Assembly (NCBI GenBank): GCA_032622095.1
Contig: CP136061.1
Location: 55,501,762-55,565,761, forward strand
DNA length: 64,000 bases
Source: Siphonodentalium dalli
Lineage: Eukaryota > Mollusca > Scaphopoda > Gadilida > Siphonodentaliidae
Direction: 5' to 3'
Positions 1,724-62,493 of the stretch are shown here, one piece after another (position 1 is the stretch's first letter; every line of letters starts with the position of its first letter). A model generated the notes under the pieces. It was given only the letters and a program-made list of their open reading frames with translations, made no database searches and was not told the DNA's origin. A program made the translations under genes and the position numbers.

Positions 1724-4700
1724 GTGAGTATTATCGCCATTGCCGAAAATAAATTATAAATGGCGAAAACAAAATGACGAAAAAAATGGCTAAATTGATT
1801 TCCTCTCAAATATGTCCATCAGGACATGGTGGCGATTATAAACACACCAGCATTCATCGGTCTAATAACATCACGCGCAGCTGACATCCGTACAACAAAA
1901 GCGTCGCCACCTCGTGTATGTTACACGATCCGATGTGCTTGGAGCAATTAGTAATATGTGTACATTTGTGTTGATTTCATGCAGTGTCAATGGCAGATGC
2001 TTTGTGTTGTAATAAACACAACTTTTGAGTGGGATAAGGGAAAGATGCTTAATCACTTTAAGTGACGGAGGTTTTTGTTGCGAGTCAAGATTCCAAAATT
2101 AATTTCTTGCATTTGCAGTTTGATATCCCTATTAATTAATTCCAACTTTTTACAAAACCGATCGATCTGTCCAACTAGCCGCGATTAAAATTATCCTAAT
2201 TGTGTAGTCACCAGGGTATACTTACTATTTTCCCGCGAATTGAACAAATATGCACCAGATACGCATAGGCATAGATAAAACTATGCACAAACTCGCGAAT
2301 AAATAAAACTTCAGGTTGCGTTCAGATATCGTATTCCATATTTTCGCTATATGTTAATACACCACAATTTGTTTTTATTTGCGATGGTCTAAAAACTTTC
2401 ATTGTATGTGGAATCGCTTGGCAGGATGTTATTGCTCATATCACATTGTTATTTTTTTCCTTTGTCAATAAACTGTGATATACGTTCAATTTATCTCAAA
2501 ATTTTTTTTCCCAAACAAGTGGCTAAAGTAAATTCAAACTGGTTAAAAAAAATTGGCATTTGGCTAAAATAATGGCTAACTGAATTTCTGGGCCAGCGTG
2601 AACACTGTTTATCGCTAATTTTTACAATAAATGCATCCTGATCCTTGTAGAAAATAATTCCAAATTATACATTCTGTTAGCAGTTCATGGTCGCAATATT
2701 TTATTCATTCTGACTGAAATTTTAGGTTTGTTATGAACTTTTTTGTCAGACATATCTGTTGTACTTCCCACAAGTACATCATTATCAGTAATATCATTTA
2801 CATAAATAATCAAGTGAAGGAACGGAAAATTGATGCAACAAAGAATCAGTCTCCACCACCTCTATTTAAAGTCATATCGCACATTAATTGGATACTAAAA
2901 AAACAAGAAATTTGCCTGATGTTAATGTCTTTTGATCTACCCAAACAAATGTAGTAAGTATCTACCTTTAAATAGGTCATCAAATTATATTTTATATCAT
3001 TTTAAAATAGAATTAAATCACTGAGCTAACAATTTCCATTTTTTGTGATAGTTACAACGAGACTCGGAAGCGGTGCTCTCGGAAACCGTTGCTACTAAAT
3101 TTGTATCGAGCTTATTAATACTCGGTGTATTGGTTTGCGTTTGGTTTTTATGTTTCTCATTTAACATTGTATTATGATACATTCATCATACTATATCTGG
3201 ACACATTAGTCCATACTCAAGAGTGTCATACTGAATTAATTCCACGTCCACAATATGTGCACGTGCCATGACACGACTCAAATTGAAAGAACACCAAAGG
3301 CTTCAAAGCGCGGTAGCCAGTACCATTATCTTTGACCGGCCATCATGCAACGATGTATATTTATTAGCCACATTGTCGATTTCATCCATGGTGTAAGTAA
3401 GTCTTCGGCTTTTGTTTTATCTTTTAGCACTGTCATTGCTGAGAGCTTTCTGATGAATGGCAACAAGCCATATTTCCGACTAAATCTTGAAAAGTTGAAA
3501 AGTTACCCATAATCTGCTGTGGTTAAGGAGTCGATTATTTAGGGCATTACTGTAGAGCATTGAAGGCTTATTTTTTTAATTGTTTTTCCTTAGGGAGAAT
3601 ACAGGGCTAACATGCAAAGTGAGTGGGTGGAAAAGATTGATGTCCACAAAGTTCCACGGACAGATGAGCCTACACTAATTAACACACTCAGTGACCCAGT
3701 TAAGATTCGCAGCTGGCAGATTGCTGGTCTACCCAAAGATAACCTGTCAGTGGAGAACGGAGTCATCGTCCAGTTCTCACAAAGATGGCCGCTGTTCATT
3801 GATCCTCAGGGTCAGGCAAACAAATGGGTCAAAAATCTTGTAAGTTTTTATTTACCAGAAATATGGTTCTATTTAGTTTGTCAAATTTTGAGTTTGTTCA
3901 TATGATAGCTCCAATAGAAAACTCCAATTTGGCCGACATTTAGAATGTGAATTTCAAACCATATCCTGATTAAAATAGGCCATCATAAAAAAGACCTTTC
4001 TAATTTTTTAGCATAATTAATTGAATTCTTGCGACCAATATGACATATAATTAGTATTTAATTTCTATTTAATAAGATCTAATTCAAATAATTATAAGCT
4101 CACAACATTACCGTAATAACTTTTATGTTCTTTATAATCTTCACCGGTCAATTAATTGGAAAGAAAGTTAACACCAACCGCATCGCTCAGCCTACCGGTA
4201 AAAATATAGTTCTCCCAATTCTTGCTCGAGAATTTTTCCAATTGATTTATAATATTAATAACATTATTGCCCAAATTCTTGTACTTCATGATTATGTTGT
4301 AATTTCATCGAAGTACTTCCCCACGTCATTATATAGCTGACTTTTGTGGAATTCCATGCGGTATGGCATAATGATCTATGTCAGTGAAATATCTCACTAC
4401 CAAACATGTTTGCACTTCTACAAATTTCAGGTTTAAATTAACACATCTGGTTAACCCTTTGGGATAAAATACATCGCTCTTATACGACTATGTTATTTCT
4501 TGAATGCCCCTCCAAATGAATATAGACCTTTCCAATATATACTTTTATAACTGGGTGAGAGAATCCATTTAGTACAGAAAGGGTTAACATTGTTATATTT
4601 TGTATTAACAGGAGCGAGATAACGGTTTGGATGTTATTAAACTCTCTGATAAAGATTTCCTCAGAAGTTTGGAAAATGCCGTCCGATTCGGCAAACCTTG

Positions 4701-12201: not shown

Positions 12202-15200
12202 GTTTTTTACAATTTTAATATATATTTATTATATTCTTTAACAGACTTATTGTGTAGGTTTAGGGCCGATAATATCGGCCCCTGGCACTCAAAGGGTTAA
12301 GAAATGATATGCAGATCGATTGGGGTCATTGGATTTTGACCAGCAGAGTAATTAAACAGTGTGTGAATCCCTAAGGGAACTTTGTTACTCTGCTGGTCAA
12401 AACTAATGATCCCAATCAATCTTCAAGTCATTTCTTATAATCATATACCAGTACATTTTAATAGAATATTAACCATTTAGACAACTTTTCAAAACTACCA
12501 CAACAATTGTAAGTAACATATATTGTTCAAATTCCAACTCAGTCTCCCAATAACAACACGCATCAAGTGAGTGCACATGATCGGCTTGAAGTCATGTAGG
12601 TGTTAGCAGAGGGTGTGTGATTATATGGTTGTATAGATGGATATGGAAAATTCACATGGAAAGCCTGATATAAATTTGCTATACCAGCAATTTGAGAGGG
12701 GAGGGAAATAAATAAAAAGGTTGCACATGTGGGTTTCGGGACCATTTGTGGTGTCCTGATAAATGGGAAATTAACTGTGTGTGGCCAAATTAGTATTTAT
12801 TTTTGTTATGTTCATTTCAGATAACATCACCCAGAGAATTAAGAACATCAATGAATTCTTCACATTCAGTTTGTACAGTAATGTCTGTAGGAGCTTGTTT
12901 GAGAAACACAAGCTAGTGTTCGCGTTCCTGCTGACTGTCAGAATTCAGATGCATGAGGGAATAATCAACATGGTAAGAAATCGCCACACTTATAATACAA
13001 ATGGTTCAGGGAATTATCAAAATGGTAAGAAATCACCACACTTAAAATACAAATGCATGCAGGAATTATCAACATGCTAACAATTCAACACACTAAAAAT
13101 ACAATGCTTGAGGGAATGATCAAGATGGTAAGAAATTTGCCTGAACTCATCTAGATAACAGCTACTTTTTTTTTGACAGCCAGCTGCTGGTGGCAGGGGG
13201 AGTTGAGGCGGGTGTGTCACCCTCGCCAACTTTGGCCAAAAAATTTCAAGAGTTTTAAATGTCATGGGCGACACAGGATTAGTTCGAACTTTCAGACCAA
13301 AACTAGTTTGAACTTTTTTCTGGCCGAGTGGTATTCAAACCATTACGTAAAATTTGTTGTTTTTACACCAAAAGTTGAATATTTTCTATTTTTGGACTGA
13401 AATGAAATCAGTTGGAAATTTCCAACCATATGGTGGGGGGGGGGGGGGGGGGGGGGGGGTGTTAGATTGAAATTTCCAATAGTTGGAAAGTTTGAGGAAA
13501 CCAGTTGGAAATATTTGTATCATATGATTTTGACAATCGTTGCTTTTTCTCTAGGATGAGTGGCGATTCCTGTTAGCTGGAGGCACAGTCGTATCTGAGA
13601 AGGTAGATAACCCCTCATCTGAATGGATCTCCGAACGATCATGGAATGACTTCCTCACTCTCGCCAACTTGGAAAAGTTTAGTGACTTTGCTAAGGACTT
13701 CAAGAATCACGTCCGTGGATTCAAACAGATATTTGACAGCTCAGAACCTCACAGGTAAATGCCTTGTCATTTTTACCCCTTTCTAGGCAAGCCTGCAAAT
13801 AGTGTGTCTGTCATTTGCAGAATGAGGTCTCCAGAGGTGAATTTAGTGATGCTATCCCGCACGATGGGCTAGCATCACCAAATTCACCCTCTGGGAACCT
13901 CATTCTGCTTAAGCCTCAACTGCTATGGGAGACCTAGGATCAGATTGAATTTCCCCAGTTGAAGTTGATGATTATTAGTCACCTCGATTATACATTTTAT
14001 CTTCTGCAAATCAGATATAGACTTCCCAGAAGGAAAGAAGTAACTAAAATCAATGTTATTTTAAGAATATAGATACTTCCCAGAAGAATTGGCCTAAGCA
14101 GAATGAGGTCCCCAGAGGGTGAATTTGGTGATGCTAGCCCACTGTGTGGGATAGCATCACTAAATTCACCCTCTGGGAACCTCATTCTGCAAATGACAGA
14201 CGCACTCGCTATTTGCAGGCTTGTTTCTAGGGCATTCCCCAGAGTAATAAATAAATCTATATATATATTTTGAGACTTCCGTGTGTATATCCTTTATTGA
14301 CTCGAAAACGGCTCGACTGATTGAGCCCAAACTTCCTATCTAAGGGTAAAAAGCCACGGGAAGTGTCATTGCACCATTCGCGAGCCCGTGCGACCACTCC
14401 TTCACCCTTCAACTGCCACCGCAATGGGGATTGATGGGTTAATCGCGTGATAATTAATGAGCGTTTGTATATGACGCGTCGCTATTAAAGAGTGTTTCTC
14501 TACTTTAGTGAAAATATACAGCATTTGACCATCTCGCAAACTGGGGATATCGAGACGAAAACTGCTGGGCCGATTGAACCCAAACTTGCTGTGTAAGGGT
14601 AAAAATCCACAGGCAGTGCACTCGGACCATTCGCGAGCCCGTGCGAACCACTCCTTCACCCTTCATCTGCCACCGTAATGGGGATTGATGGGTTATTCGC
14701 GTGATAATTAATGAGCGTTTGTATATGAGGCGTCGCTATTAAAGAGCGTTTCTCTACTTTAGTGAAAATATACGGCAGGTCAAAACTGGGGTTATCGAGA
14801 CGAAAATTTCGTACTTAGGGGTTCCAAGGGACGGGGGAGATTTTCGTCGGGTCAGTTTGTCCACCCGAGGACCTTGACCTTGAAACGGGTACCCACAAAT
14901 GACCTGGGGCAATATCTCGGTAGTCAGAGGTGACATCGATGTGAATTTTTTTATGTATGGTCAACTCGGGACGGGAAATATTTTTGTCCGGTTATTTTGT
15001 CCACCCAACATGACCGTGACACGGGTACCCGCAAATGACCTTGGGAGATATTTCGGGCATCAGTGGTGGCAGCGACGTACAGGGTTACCTTGAAAAACAA
15101 AAATTAATGGATCAACCAAAGCCATGGGACCAATCCCGCCAGTGGCGGGCTAATCTGCTAGTAATATATAAATGGTATGGTAGCACAGCGGGTTAGTATC

Positions 15201-48200: not shown

Positions 48201-51200
48201 ATCTATGAAATTTCCCACTTTGTTAAAGAATTGTCAACAGGTCCTGAAATTCACACCTGTTAAACATCCGGAGGTAGTTGACCTTCCTAGTATTAGAAAA
48301 TTTCAATGCTTCTCAGAAACTTTCCATCTGGGTGACTGGTGAGTCTTAAATTTAACTGAAATCAGGACATTATTCAACTCTTGGCCTAAAAACCTCATAG
48401 TTTCTCCAAAATATTAGTTGCAAATTAAATCATCACAACAATATTAAAGGTACTCAATCTGATTCGATGGTCCCCATATAATCAGATTCCAACAATAAAT
48501 TATTTTTTTTAAATGCCACTTCAGCTATCAGAATCGATTAATTGCCAAAAAATAATGCTAACCACAGTCAGCTATAGTATAAAATTGCCCGAATAGGTGT
48601 TATTTATCAACATGTTGTTCGACGAAATTTGGCCTTATTATCAACACAAAGCCTCTTGATTTTAGAGTTGTCCATCTTCATCCGCAAATTGGTCCGAGAC
48701 CGTAGGCTCATCAACTTTTTACTGGGCCACTAATAAGTCTCAATGGTGAAAAATAATAGATTTCAAAAATCGATATCTAATAACTCTGAGAGCTTAATAA
48801 TGGGTAATCGTTACCTTATTAATCTCCTCAACTCGAATCAAATAATTTTACCCCCGAATCCAAATAAATAGTAATTGAGAGCTGTTTAATCGGATTATGC
48901 ATCTTTAATCTATTTTCCAGCCTTTAAAATCAAAATATTGTTCATCTTAGCTGCTGAAAATTTTATCCAAACTTCTCTTGTCCCTACATTTAGTTGTTTT
49001 TATACCTGTCCCCGTGTGTTAGGGCTGCTTGTCTGTATACTTTGAATGGGGATAGCAGTTCAGAACATTGCAGTATGTCAGAGCTTTCCTCGGGTAAATC
49101 TTTCTTCCTGTCTACCATCTTCTGAAGGGTCTTGTGTCTTTTTCAGGTATTCTGGATCTCTGGTTTCTTCTTCCCACAAGCCTTCTTGACAGGAACATTA
49201 CAGAATTATGCAAGGAAAGAAATTATCTCAATTGACACCATATCATTCGAGTTCAAGGTTAGTCAAATATGCAAACTAATCAATTATATATGGAATACAT
49301 TTTATTTGCTTTAGTGTCTTTAATCATATTTGTGGGCATTATTTACCTAGAAAATTATATTTTGTTCTTCGTTTCAAGTTACCCTATTACCAATTATTTC
49401 CAAACCTGTAAATACATCTTACTTCATGGAAAACAAACCAGGTCTAATGCCTGTTATAAGAAAATTAATTTCAGGCATAAAAAAAAATTAGCATTTGCAA
49501 TGTATACAAATTCCCCAATTAAGGTATCTTACCATGGTGTTTGGGATTCATTCATGGGTACAATCACGTTAATCAGGGATTCATCAAGTAAGAAGGAAAG
49601 ACAAAATTTTTGACATTGCTATAAACGCCACAGAAAAATTGAGTCAATATAATAACCCCTGGATGGACTCGGGGTACCTGGCAGATGTTATAATGACATT
49701 TGATTTTTAAACCTTTGATTTTAGAACAAATTAATTTAATTATTTAATTTAAAAAAAAAAAAAAAATGTTTTGTTAAATTGAGCAAGGAAAAAAAAAATA
49801 ATCAAAAATTGCGAAACAAAGTATACTTTTATTATGGCCTCAGTAAATGTACCAATTCATAGCTTAGTTCATAATGAAGTGCACAGTACATTCTATCCTC
49901 AATAGTTCATAAGAACATGCTGACCAGTTAATTTTATCATGCTTTTATATTACGTTGGATCGATAACATCCCCTTGATAATTATTGTCTTCTAAAGGAAT
50001 TATGTTTATGAATGTCACAGCTGGTCAGTGAGATTATTCCCTGTACAGATATAAAACCTAAAATATTGCAATACCTGTACAACATGTGAACAGCACACAG
50101 CCACATCCAGGCATGAAAATCAATAGTGAGATAGGCTTATATTATATGTGATTTACTCCGAGGCCATACTAATCATCTGCATCTGGGTACCACAGTACCC
50201 AAATGTAACACAAACTGTCACATAGAAATAAAAATGTTATGTATTAAACCCTTTGTTTAATATCCCCCACATACACAGTTTGGCAGGGGATATAGAAATG
50301 GGTTCCGTCCGTCAGTCCATCCAGGATTCCATCTGTCATTGGAGACTTGAAATTTGGAGTTCTCTTTTAACATAATAATATCGATATCATTGCACTAAGC
50401 TCTTACGTCACTGCCTGTGCGGATAATACATGTGTGTCTTACTAAGAAATAGGAGGCCGGATTTAGGTTCCAGTAGGTACTCAGAACGGACATATAGCAG
50501 ACAGCGTGCCATTTTACATCCGTACTCAGTATGGACATATATGAACCAAGAAGTTAAAGTGAATGAGTGGACAGATGAGATCAGAAAGACTGCAAATTTT
50601 TGTGTAGTGATATGTATCAATATATTCTTCATGGAAAAAGAGAGTGTGGGAGCTGGTGAGAGAAGAAAAATAATAAAATATTTGGGTGATACAGATACAG
50701 TAATGCCCTAATTAATCTACTCCATATAAACCACAGCAAAATTATGGGTAATTTTCAGGATTTAGTCGGAAATATGGCTTGTTGCCATTCATCAGAAAGC
50801 TTTCCCCGAGAGCTTTCCAATGAATGGCAACGAGCCATATTTCTGACTTAATCCTCAAAAATTACCCATATTCTGCTGTGGTTATGGAGTCGATTAATTA
50901 GGGCATTACTGTAGAAGGGTAATGAGGATGAAAATCACACATGTTTACTATTTCCGTACTAATATTTATTTCAGATTTTGAGAGAGGAAGTTGAGGAATT
51001 GAAGAAGAGTCCTGATCATGGTTGCTATATCCGAGGAATGTTTATAGAGGGCGCTGCATGGGACTACAGCAAGTTCCTGCTCACTGAGGCTCGACCAAAG
51101 GAACTGTACACAACAATGCCCCCAGTCTGGCTGACACCTAAAACTAATAGGAAACCGCAGACGGGAGGAATATATGAATGTCCGGTATATAAAACCCTCA

Positions 51201-54200
51201 CCAGGGCCGGTAAGCACCATTATTTTATGATTGTCTGGTCTATAAAACCCTCACCAGGACTGGTAAGCACCATTATTTTATGATTGTCTGGTCTATAAAA
51301 ACCTCACCAGGTCCCATAAGCACCATTATTATATGAATGTCTGGTCTATAAAACCCTCACCAGGACTGGTAAGCACCATTATTTTATGATTGTCTGGTCT
51401 ATAAAACCCTCACCAGGGCTGGGAAGCACCATTATTTTATGATTGTCTGGTCTATAAAAACCTCACCAGGGCTGGGAAGCACCATTATTTTATGATTGTC
51501 TGGTCTATAAAACCCTCACCAGGACTGGTAAGCACCATTATTTTATGATTGTCTGGTCTATAAAAACCTCACCAGGGCTGGGAAGCACCATTATTTTATG
51601 ATTGTCTGGTCTATAAAAACCTCACCAGGTCCCATAAGCACCATTATTTTATGATTGTCTGGTCTATAAAACCCTCACCAGGGCTGGCCATGGGAAGCAC
51701 CATTATTTTATGATTGTCTGGTCTATAAAACCCTCACCAGGACTGGTAAGCACCATTATTTTATGATTGTCTGGTCTATAAAAACCTCACCAGGGCTGGG
51801 AAGCACCATTATTTTATGATTGTCTGGTCTATAAAAACCTCACCAGGGCTGGGAAGCACCATTATTTTATGATTGTCTGGTCTATAAAAACCTCACCAGG
51901 GCTGGGAAGCACCATTATTTTATGATTGTCTGGTCTATAAAAACCTCACCAGGTCCCATAAGCACCATTATTATATGAATGTCTGGTCTATAAAACCCTC
52001 ACCAGGCCGGAATACACCATTATTTTATGATTGTCTGGTCTATAAAACCCTCACCAGGGCTGGTATACACCATTATTTTATGAATTTCTGGTCTATAAAA
52101 CCTTCATCCTTTCTTCACTAAATTTATACTCATTGATGGGTTGTTACCTTAGGAAATGTTCAGATAATAATTTCAACCTAAATATTATCTGAACATTTCC
52201 CACCAAAGAATTTGAATCCTTCTGCACTTGTATTAGCTTTTCATCTGTCTGTCATCTGGTTTTATAAAAATCCAAGTATCTTTCGATACTCTTATACACT
52301 GAGAGCTTTCCGATGAATGGTAACAAGCCATATTTCCGACTAAATCCTGAAAAATTACCCATAATTCTGCTGTGGTTAAGGAGTCGATTATTTAGGGCAT
52401 TACTGTAGCTGAATATAATAGTATCCACCCGGAACTGTTTTTTGATGGACTTTGCCAATTGTGTGATAGAATAGTATCAACACTGAAGTAAAAACTAAAA
52501 TGACACTTAAATATTGTGATAGCCCTTAAAGCTCAGAAAGTGTGAAGAACAACCAATAAAGAGATTAGCATTATAAATGATTTGTACAGATACTACAATG
52601 TACTACAATTACAGTTTGGTTCAGTAATCTGCATCAGTATATTGGGGTTGGTAATTGTTGCAAATAGAGTTGGGTATAGTAATCTTCAGGGGTTACTGAT
52701 GTGGTTAATTTAAGGGCAGAATGCCCTTAGCTAGCACAATAAGATGGATTATCATATGTATTGTGAACACTTCACACCTTGTTGCTATCTTATTTGTGGC
52801 CTGCCCTGGGTTGTCAGAGCAGGGGGTGCATTTGATGTCCTTTGTAGAGAAACGCCCCTGTGTAATTTATGTATGTTTTATAAAATGGCAAGAGAATTTG
52901 TTTTTAAAGTGGCTTAACAGTATTGTTCTACCTCTGACCTAAAAGCAGGGACATGGAACAATTATGTTTCTTTCCCTCCCCCCACCCTCCCCAAACTTTG
53001 GTCAAAAATTTCAACTGTCAGCAACAGTTAGAAATTGTCATGTCTGAGATAACAGCAGTTGTCGAAATTTCAGACCGAAAATATAATAAATTTCTAACCA
53101 TAGGGGCTCAATCAGAACACCCCCCCCCCAATGGCCATGTTGAAAAGGGTACCATTTCCTGGAAGCTCGCCTCCCCTCCCCTACTCTTAAATGCCTCTTG
53201 TGCCCCATGGCTCAAAGGGTGATATAATGCCTGTAGTCTATGATTTTTGTTTCCTGCTGCTTCAGCGATTTTATGTTCTTACCTGATATTGTCAGCTTTA
53301 AACTCGTGGCCTGAGGGGTGATGTAGGCCTAGCCCCCCCCTCTAACATGGTATGTACTTCATAACACTAAACTCCCACCTCTTATCTCATAATATCTCAC
53401 CACTTGCCTGAGGGGTCAGAGCTCAGGAGATATATTAGATGCTGGGCCAGTCTTTGCTGTAAAGTGATATATTACTTTGTGCCTTGGAACCATTAAATTT
53501 GTACATAAACTGGAAATTTGCAATAAAAAAACATAAAAACTGAAAATAGGTAATAAAAAACATACAATCTTGTTTTGTTGATATATGATAGGTGATAAGG
53601 GGGTAAATAAGGACACCTGTAATTATGGGAAACAAATATCCTCAAACATCTGTGATATTATTTGTTTTATATGTCTTTCTCCCATGCTATAATATATATC
53701 TGGTGCAGGCCTGATTAAAGTGTGCCTGTCATTTGCAGAATGAGGTCCCCAGAGGGTGAATTTAGTAACGCTATCCCACATAGCGGGCTAGCATCACTAA
53801 ATTCACCCTCTGGGGACTTAATTCTGCTTAGGCCTCATCTTCTCTGGAAAGTTTCTTTATTATAAAATTTCTATAGAATCTTCTTCAAATAGATTCTATA
53901 ACTTTTTTAGTTTAGTTTCTCTATATCCCCAAATTGGCAGACGACACATTGCATAATCAAGGTTCCCAATGGGTGTAGATCACAATATTCATCAATTGGG
54001 AATTTCAATCTGAGACTATGTCTCCCATACCAGATGAGGCCATACAGAATGAGGTCCCCAGAGGGTGAATTTGGTGATACAAGCCCGTTATGCGGGATAG
54101 CGTCACTAAATTCACCCTCTAGGGACCTCATTCTGCAAATGACAGGCATACTATAATCAGACTTGATCTGGCGATATGTTATTGGTCTTTTTAAGCAGGT

Positions 54201-55875: not shown

Positions 55876-56341
55876 CCAAGCTCTCAACCAACAATCTGGA
55901 TATCCGAAGAGACCTCAACTTCTAGTCCTCAACCAACAATCTGAACATCTGAAAGAGACCTCAAGTTATAGTCCTCAACCAACAATCGCGACAGATGAAT
56001 GATACCTCAACTTAACCCTTTCAGTGCCAGGGGCAGATCTCATCGGCCCAAATTTACGGTCTGTAAAATCGGCCCTAAAAAAATAAAAAACATTTTTTTT
56101 TTTAGATTTTTTAAAAATTATTAAAATTGTAAAAAATTGTAAAAAATAATAACAAATGATGAAAAATTGTTAGGCCAATGCATTCTCTTATATAAGAGAA
56201 TGCATTGGCACAGGGTATATCGGTTGATACAAAAATCGGACCTGGCACTCAAAGGGTTATAGTCCTCAACCAACAATCGGGACAGTTGAATAATACCTCA
56301 ACTATTATGAGTCCACAGTGAACTATTTCGACATCTGAATG
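55863..56341 (+). repeat. Stop-codon/3' UTR tandem array, 5 units of 46 bp
   Basis: Units begin CCTCAACTACTAACC (55863, containing the real stop), CCTCAACTTCTAG (55913), CCTCAAGTTATAG (55959), CCTCAACTTA-[MITE]-TAG (56005) and CCTCAACTATTATGAG (56296), each followed by TCCTCAACCAACAATC-like text. Spacing is 50, 46, 46, and 46 once the MITE and its duplication are removed. Units 1-4 keep a stop triplet at the same place. Confidence 0.9.
56015..56257 (+). mobile_element. Family-C MITE in the DNAH1 3' UTR
   Basis: ACCCTTTCAGTGCCAGG ... CCTGGCACTCAAAGGGT with a shortened hairpin (CATTCTCTTATATAAGAGAATG). TA flanks both sides; the neighbouring tandem units give the empty site (CAAGTTATAGTCC). It carries AATAAA at 56082-56087 followed by a T-run. 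Confidence 0.9.
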
Positions 56342-62220: not shown

Positions 62221-62273
62221 TCTACACTGTTTCAAATGTTGAGATACAATAGTTCCGGTGCACCAATCTCAAT

Positions 62274-62493
62274 CAATCTGTTAGTGTGTTGAAGTCAATC
62301 TGTTAGTGTGTTGAAGTCAATCTGTTAGTGTGTTGAAGTCAATCTGTTAGTGTGTTGAAGTCAATCTGTTAGTGTGTTGAAGTCAATCTGTTAGTGTGTT
62401 GAAGTCAATCTGTTAGTGTGTTGAAGTCAATCTGTTAGTGTGTTGAAGTCAATCTGTTAGTGTGTTGAAGTCAATCTGTTAGTGTGTTGAAGT
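62274..62493 (+). repeat. 22-bp minisatellite, 10 identical copies
   Basis: CAATCTGTTAGTGTGTTGAA plus GT, ten units without a single difference, 220 bp exactly. Perfect identity implies a very recent expansion. Confidence 0.97.

Follow-up and report, generated by a model that had tools for sequence, protein, structure and literature searches.

A splice-donor-spanning minisatellite in DNAH1 of Siphonodentalium dalli and similar arrays at other donors of its genome

What keeps an intron that opens with a row of near-identical splice donors from being spliced at the wrong one, and how does such a row arise? The question is raised by the window analysed here, a stretch of 64,000 nucleotides (nt) from the scaphopod Siphonodentalium dalli (assembly GCA_032622095.1, contig CP136061.1, positions 55,501,762 to 55,565,761 of the forward strand; position 1 below is its first letter), in which a minisatellite with a unit of 53 base pairs (bp) runs across an exon end of the dynein heavy chain gene DNAH1 and repeats its donor many times. 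We consider it probable that this array is a junction-spanning minisatellite of the kind known as a ‘mirage’, largely neutral and tolerated because the exon-proximal donor is the one used. The array and the exons on either side of its intron are as follows (TRF, Tandem Repeats Finder).

51173 to 52106, forward strand: donor-spanning minisatellite (TRF: period 53, 17.5 copies, 91% matches, score 1478)
50975 to 51209, forward strand: penultimate DNAH1 exon, placed by DNAH1 homology; starts ILREEV, ends with the first base of a Gly codon, phase 1
55754 to 55875, forward strand: last DNAH1 exon; opens with the rest of the Gly codon, ends LCALNY, stop TAA

The original prediction of a head-to-tail array of about 17 copies of 53 bp agrees with the TRF result, although its start had been set at 51187, 14 bp too far to the right: the array begins 37 bp inside the penultimate exon, at TATGAATGTCCGG, and crosses the donor of that exon. 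The unit joins 37 bp of exon end to 16 bp of intron start, so that exon end, donor and intron are all represented as had been said, but the intronic share is smaller than the 20–30 bp first estimated. A chance repeat is ruled out by the TRF score, and a dispersed element was rejected because all eight of the matches listed (there are at least eight) in a DNA search of the assembly with the unit lie at the DNAH1 array locus. The assignment to DNAH1 stands: the best match of the array-bearing exon among PDB structures is DNAH1 (E = 4e-25), with other heavy chains next, and a fused query assembled from pieces of the window exons matches DNAH1 at E = 0 over chain residues of about 3123–4266, the C-terminal quarter. 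The 5′ part of the gene lies upstream of the window (DHC_N2 matches at C1:55.436–55.447 Mb), and the number 20 originally given to the array-bearing exon therefore counts window exons only. As the exon at 55754–55875 is the final one, the array opens the last DNAH1 intron. In the final stretch of the fused-query match, query positions 949–1066 face DNAH1 chain residues 4149–4266, 118 residues each, so the splice from penultimate to last exon changes no length, as judged from the match coordinates and not from a residue-level alignment of that stretch. By homology one intron suffices for the DNAH1 reading frame at this junction, a point that bears on intron gain by tandem duplication.

The donors of the array were scored with a matrix derived from 183 donors sampled in this genome (script-called, array-bearing donors included; median score 4.14). 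They are listed here with the stop codon that matters for their use; a slash marks the exon–intron junction.

51210 to 51211, forward strand: real splice donor GT (CCG/GTAAGC, score 3.14, 36th percentile)
51263 to 51264, forward strand: decoy donor of unit 2 (CTG/GTAAGC, score 3.90)
51369 to 51370, forward strand: decoy donor of unit 4 (score 3.90)
51528 to 51529, forward strand: decoy donor of unit 7 (score 3.90)
51746 to 51747, forward strand: decoy donor of unit 11 (score 3.90)
52063 to 52064, forward strand: weak decoy donor of unit 17 (CTG/GTATAC, score 1.15)
51281 to 51283, forward strand: in-frame stop, reached on reading through the first donor

On this genome-derived matrix the four intact decoys (47th percentile) lie slightly above the real donor, which bears out the expectation of a real donor followed by decoys of about equal strength. 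Any use of a decoy would, as read from the sequence, shift or truncate the C-terminus of DNAH1. The unit 2 donor, if used, would add 53 nt, shift the frame and bring a stop 84 nt into the last exon. If the donors of units 4, 7, 11 or 17 were used the stop at 51281–51283, which is real as first reported, would be retained 85, 244, 462 or 779 nt upstream of the last junction, and by the usual 50–55 nt rule stops in these positions are expected to trigger decay. The frame consequences thus show what had been claimed, namely that a later donor would truncate or shift DNAH1. As the use of a decoy gives either a wrong C-terminus or a decay-type stop, it follows that the array harms the gene unless the exon-proximal donor prevails.

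The history that we favour would begin with a tandem duplication of about 53 bp that straddled the junction between the penultimate DNAH1 exon and the last intron, after which slippage or unequal exchange may have multiplied and partly homogenized the copies inside the intron, while constraint on the protein would keep the sequence of the real exon. The exon-proximal donor is transcribed first and gives a DNAH1 C-terminus of normal length, and judging by homology it is most likely the one used, in which case the extra copies would be largely neutral and the decoys free to persist or decay. The copies fit this in part. Between the exon copy and the intronic consensus there are differences at 4 of the 37 exonic sites, and inspection by eye shows a Leu codon in every intronic copy at the place of the exon's Pro (CPVYKT), as would be expected if the exon unit is excluded from homogenization; it seems that the intronic copies descend from a single mutated one or that such a copy spread among them. 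Unit by unit, GGTAAGC is present in units 1 (the real donor), 2, 4, 7 and 11, GGGAAGC in units 5, 6, 8, 12, 13 and 14 and CATAAGC in units 3, 9 and 15, confirming that some copies retain the donor and others have lost its GT; of the remaining units, 10 carries a 6-bp insertion, 16 and 17 are degenerate and 18 is partial. Over units 2–17 the donor states are GTAAGC (four), GTATAC (one), GGAAGC (six), ATAAGC (three), the 6-bp insertion (one) and GAATAC (one), so that GT is kept in 5 of the 16 intronic copies and lost in 11.

Other donors of this genome appear to have undergone a like process. Ten further arrays of unrelated units of 30–90 bp span a donor, one elsewhere in DNAH1 and nine at other loci (labelled L below, each checked by eye), which argues for a general process.

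12956 to 13136, forward strand: second DNAH1 donor-spanning array, 52 bp × 3.5, at an exon (12821–12972) that ends GIINM, ATG/GTAAGAA; GT kept in two of three further copies
L036: donor-spanning array, 37 bp × 11
L059: donor-spanning array, 64 bp × 5
L077: donor-spanning array, 60 bp × 3.1
L078: donor-spanning array, 90 bp × 3.8
L080: donor-spanning array, 60 bp × 4.3
L081: donor-spanning array, 34 bp × at least 11.4 (it runs beyond the fetched piece)
L084: donor-spanning array, 35 bp × 2.9
L085: donor-spanning array, 30 bp × 14.5
L108: donor-spanning array, 53 bp × 5.7

Donor-spanning arrays were thus found at 9 of 205 exon ends outside the window, or 11 of 223 when the window's 18 exon ends are included, at rates that are uneven by family (kinesins 6 of 46 exons, dyneins 2 of 120, ABC 1 of 39). 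The exons were sampled by protein family from among the listed matches: 52 of 64 for Dynein_C (5 of the 64 being the window's own), 68 of 89 for DHC_N2, 46 of 123 for kinesin and 39 of 48 for ABC membrane, with the DHC_N2 and kinesin pieces chosen where exons stand close together, near-duplicate ABC copies and one long open frame omitted, and myosin matches left out. The figure of 205 counts exon ends, not confirmed donors. A script derived their donor and acceptor positions from the match ends, and these may be wrong for some exons; for one exon without a donor call the match end was used instead. Twelve of the 52 Dynein_C matches reach the end of the profile and are probably last exons without a donor, which lowers and does not raise the donor rate. 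L128 (104 bp × 2.2, starting in the intron and with fewer than 2.4 copies) was set aside. Arrays that span an acceptor were found in 3 of 224 exons (L054, L064 and L084, the last with 6 bp exonic), not counting the marginal L089 (5 bp exonic, 1.9 copies); L085 166–369 and L090 1010–2963, which abut an acceptor without entering the exon, were not counted.

Whether these numbers exceed chance was judged by four yardsticks, one of which gives a contrary answer. By base-pair coverage 10 of 184 donors (5.4%) lie in arrays against 4.9% of intron positions (p = 0.41), a count that was made before the ABC sample was added, with donors placed by a separate donor matrix and with an open frame at about 40 kb of the window dropped from the exon list as doubtful by eye. 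However, further copies within the exon would disrupt the protein, which confines the real donor to the first unit of an array, and on this ground we take the seed unit, that is one unit per array, as the fair null. Such units occupy 0.475% of intron, giving 0.87 expected donors against the 10 observed of 184 (p = 3e-8); in kinesins alone 6 of 46 compare with 0.36 expected (p = 1.6e-6). A TRF-free test for repeats of at least two copies returned 11 of 222 exon ends against 3.3 expected (3.3-fold, p = 6e-4), or 9 of 204 outside the window (p = 0.004), its hits including L066, where the donor is probably misplaced inside a mobile element, and missing L080. When three or more copies were required the excess was 27-fold (11 of 222) at the looser threshold and 25-fold (8 of 222) at the stricter.

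Acceptors showed no clear excess by the seed-unit null (3 of 185 against 0.88 expected, p = 0.06) or by the three-copy test (1 and 0 of 223 against 0.78 and 0.63 expected) and none by the TRF-free test (3 of 223 against 3.75 expected). The comparison of donor-spanning with acceptor-spanning arrays gives 10 against 3 (p = 0.09), 10 against 1 with stricter array limits (p = 0.01) and, for the TRF-free hits, Fisher p = 0.03. Arrays that span no junction are evenly spread with distance from donors, and three (L050, L085 and L090) have an acceptor at most 40 bp away. It should be noted that thresholds and yardsticks were fixed after the arrays had been seen, the two window cases having been found first, and that the p values take exon ends as independent; several of the dynein exons are recent paralogues and are not independent. 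Given this, and the uneven rates among families, it is likely, but not proven, that donors sit in arrays above chance in this genome, 3- to 27-fold depending on the null and not at all by base-pair coverage. A wider proposal can be made only tentatively, and we lean slightly against it: that splice donors are preferred birthplaces or survivors of minisatellites here, about 1 in 20 of the sampled exon ends carrying a donor row, an excess over chance of several-fold to tens-fold that falls mainly on donors and not on acceptors, and that a process tied to donors (breakage linked to transcription or RNA, or selection for several U1 sites) keeps making rows of near-identical donors of which the exon-proximal one is normally used, the rest being raw material for new splice forms and introns.

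Three results weigh against a neutral, mirage-like history as set out above. The donor is the most variable part of the DNAH1 array, with changes in 6 of its 9 columns and in 4 of the remaining 44 (p = 6e-4), a pattern not expected under strict neutrality; in L081, L085 and L108 the exonic part of the exon copy is identical to the intronic consensus, so exclusion of the boundary unit is not general; and uniform seeding fails to predict the excess of arrays at donors. The last of these is what would be expected if the arrays were favoured as a functional platform, in which the row of donors would increase the binding of U1 at the intron start, serving better exon definition or protection from premature polyadenylation, and donors are kept. 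The ten other arrays do keep GT in 52 of their 54 intronic donor copies, but conservation of their donor columns does not significantly exceed that of the other columns (5 of 90 variable against 45 of 418, p = 0.17), as neutrality predicts, and the DNAH1 array, with its 11 losses, is an outlier in GT retention. We therefore think a functional platform unlikely.

The variation at the DNAH1 donor could also reflect tuning or purging, the use of later donors lowering or varying DNAH1 output and mutations that kill decoys being selected. The strength of the intact decoys relative to the real donor, the frame consequences of their use and the centring of variation on the donor would all fit this, and we nevertheless regard it as quite improbable: four strong decoys are still intact, the ten other arrays retain nearly all of theirs, and the changes may come from a mutation-prone quasi-palindrome (ACCAG-GA-CTGGT), some variants looking by eye like local inversions (TGGGA/TCCCA). 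Only about six independent events, counted by eye, lie behind the donor variation, and any of three causes would account for it: decoy purging, a hotspot at this small inverted repeat, or a few variants that spread. As for the clustering of GT loss on which the original prediction wished to see the units aligned, neither a runs test (p = 0.85) nor an adjacency test (p = 0.63) finds the losses grouped along the array; changes are instead concentrated in the donor columns. Lastly, an expanded or misjoined repeat is very improbable, since the assembly consists of 9 contigs of 190–301 million bases, the copies differ among themselves and the ten further arrays share the anatomy, although the copy number, taken from one assembly, may still be off.

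Several repeats near these loci were also observed. Directly after the DNAH1 stop lies a 46-bp × 2.9 array (55883 to 56014, forward strand) whose unit by eye resembles the last codons (CTCAACTACTAA) and which may correspond, at a stop codon, to the arrays that span donors. A palindromic element some 215 bp long (by eye) stands at 50700–50920, directly upstream of the array-bearing exon, with a partial copy at 52300–52410, directly downstream of the 53-bp array, and similar peptides recur in several open frames of the window. Downstream of DNAH1 there is a 22-bp array of 10 copies with 100% matches (62273–62493). Among the kinesin pieces (the first three in reverse-complement orientation), L090 1010–2963 is a 40-bp array of about 49 copies that reaches the polypyrimidine tract of the exon's acceptor; in L078 2102–2380 the 90-bp donor-spanning unit occurs again, in a second block that lies about 1.3 kb beyond the first and ahead of the next listed exon; L085 1–92 is a 37-bp × 2.5 array upstream of an exon, part of which (LGNVISAL) it resembles by eye, as if copied into the intron; and L077 1167–2310 is a 65-bp × 17.6 intronic array holding a donor-like TTGGTGAGTAG with no exon recognized alongside. 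An unlisted kinesin exon as the source of this last array was rejected, nothing coding being recognized by eye in three frames.

The part most worth following is the idea of donors as favoured minisatellite sites. If the donor bias holds genome-wide, donors would be subject to a mutational or selective process that is still to be explained, and introns and splice variants could draw on a stock of duplicated splice signals. The arrays are natural rows of near-equal donors, some stronger on paper than the real one, and as such offer a test of how the spliceosome chooses among 5′ splice sites; they are also a warning that in genomes of this kind exon ends may be misplaced by gene prediction and repeat masking.

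The original prediction knew of no standard feature type for such an array. Mirages, reportedly first described by Canestro et al. 2002, are one. As described in two papers, the amphioxus mirages have the same architecture, being tandem repeats with units of 10–160 bp that span exon/intron boundaries, 5′ and 3′ alike, in Adh3, the globins BflGb6 and BflGb9, troponin C and PGBD5, with length differences between haplotypes and somatic instability at Adh3, and a model of intron gain is proposed from them (PMC3087553, PMC3902484). Regular splicing is intact there by reverse transcription PCR of the globins and by the Adh3 data (PMC3087553) and by statement (PMC3902484), which speaks against interference by such arrays, and in a globin mirage the boundary unit is excluded from homogenization (PMC3087553). 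A genome-wide count of boundary-spanning arrays was not found among titles and abstract openings, which is weak evidence of absence, nor a further boundary-spanning array in passages of PMC2206037 and PMC12783039. The DNAH1 array resembles mirages in that its unit spans an exon/intron boundary, in unit length (53 bp, and 30–90 bp in the ten others) and in that many but not all copies keep their splice signals. It differs in having lost most of its decoy donors and in its 17.5 copies, and the arrays were here counted over 223 exon ends and are commoner at donors, in a genome of 2.23 Gb in 9 contigs. The amphioxus genome is about 0.5 Gb.

The human 6-16/IFI6 (G1P3) minisatellite is said to have a unit of about 12 bp and several donors in use. 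The reference list of PMC2572611 includes a title on a human minisatellite that provides multiple splice donors. Like IFI6, DNAH1 has a minisatellite at an exon end that repeats donor sites, but its unit is 53 bp, and where several donors are used in IFI6 the decoys here are predicted from sequence. Intron gain by tandem duplication is reportedly the subject of Rogers 1989, Gao and Lynch 2009 and Zhuo 2007. Tandem repeats at exon–intron boundaries are described for human paralogues in PMC2812944. These share with our array the duplication of splice signals by tandem repeats, but they concern new or alternative introns, whereas the DNAH1 array lies, as known here from sequence, within one existing intron. 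We conclude that the DNAH1 array belongs to a known type, the mirage, and is most likely neutral.

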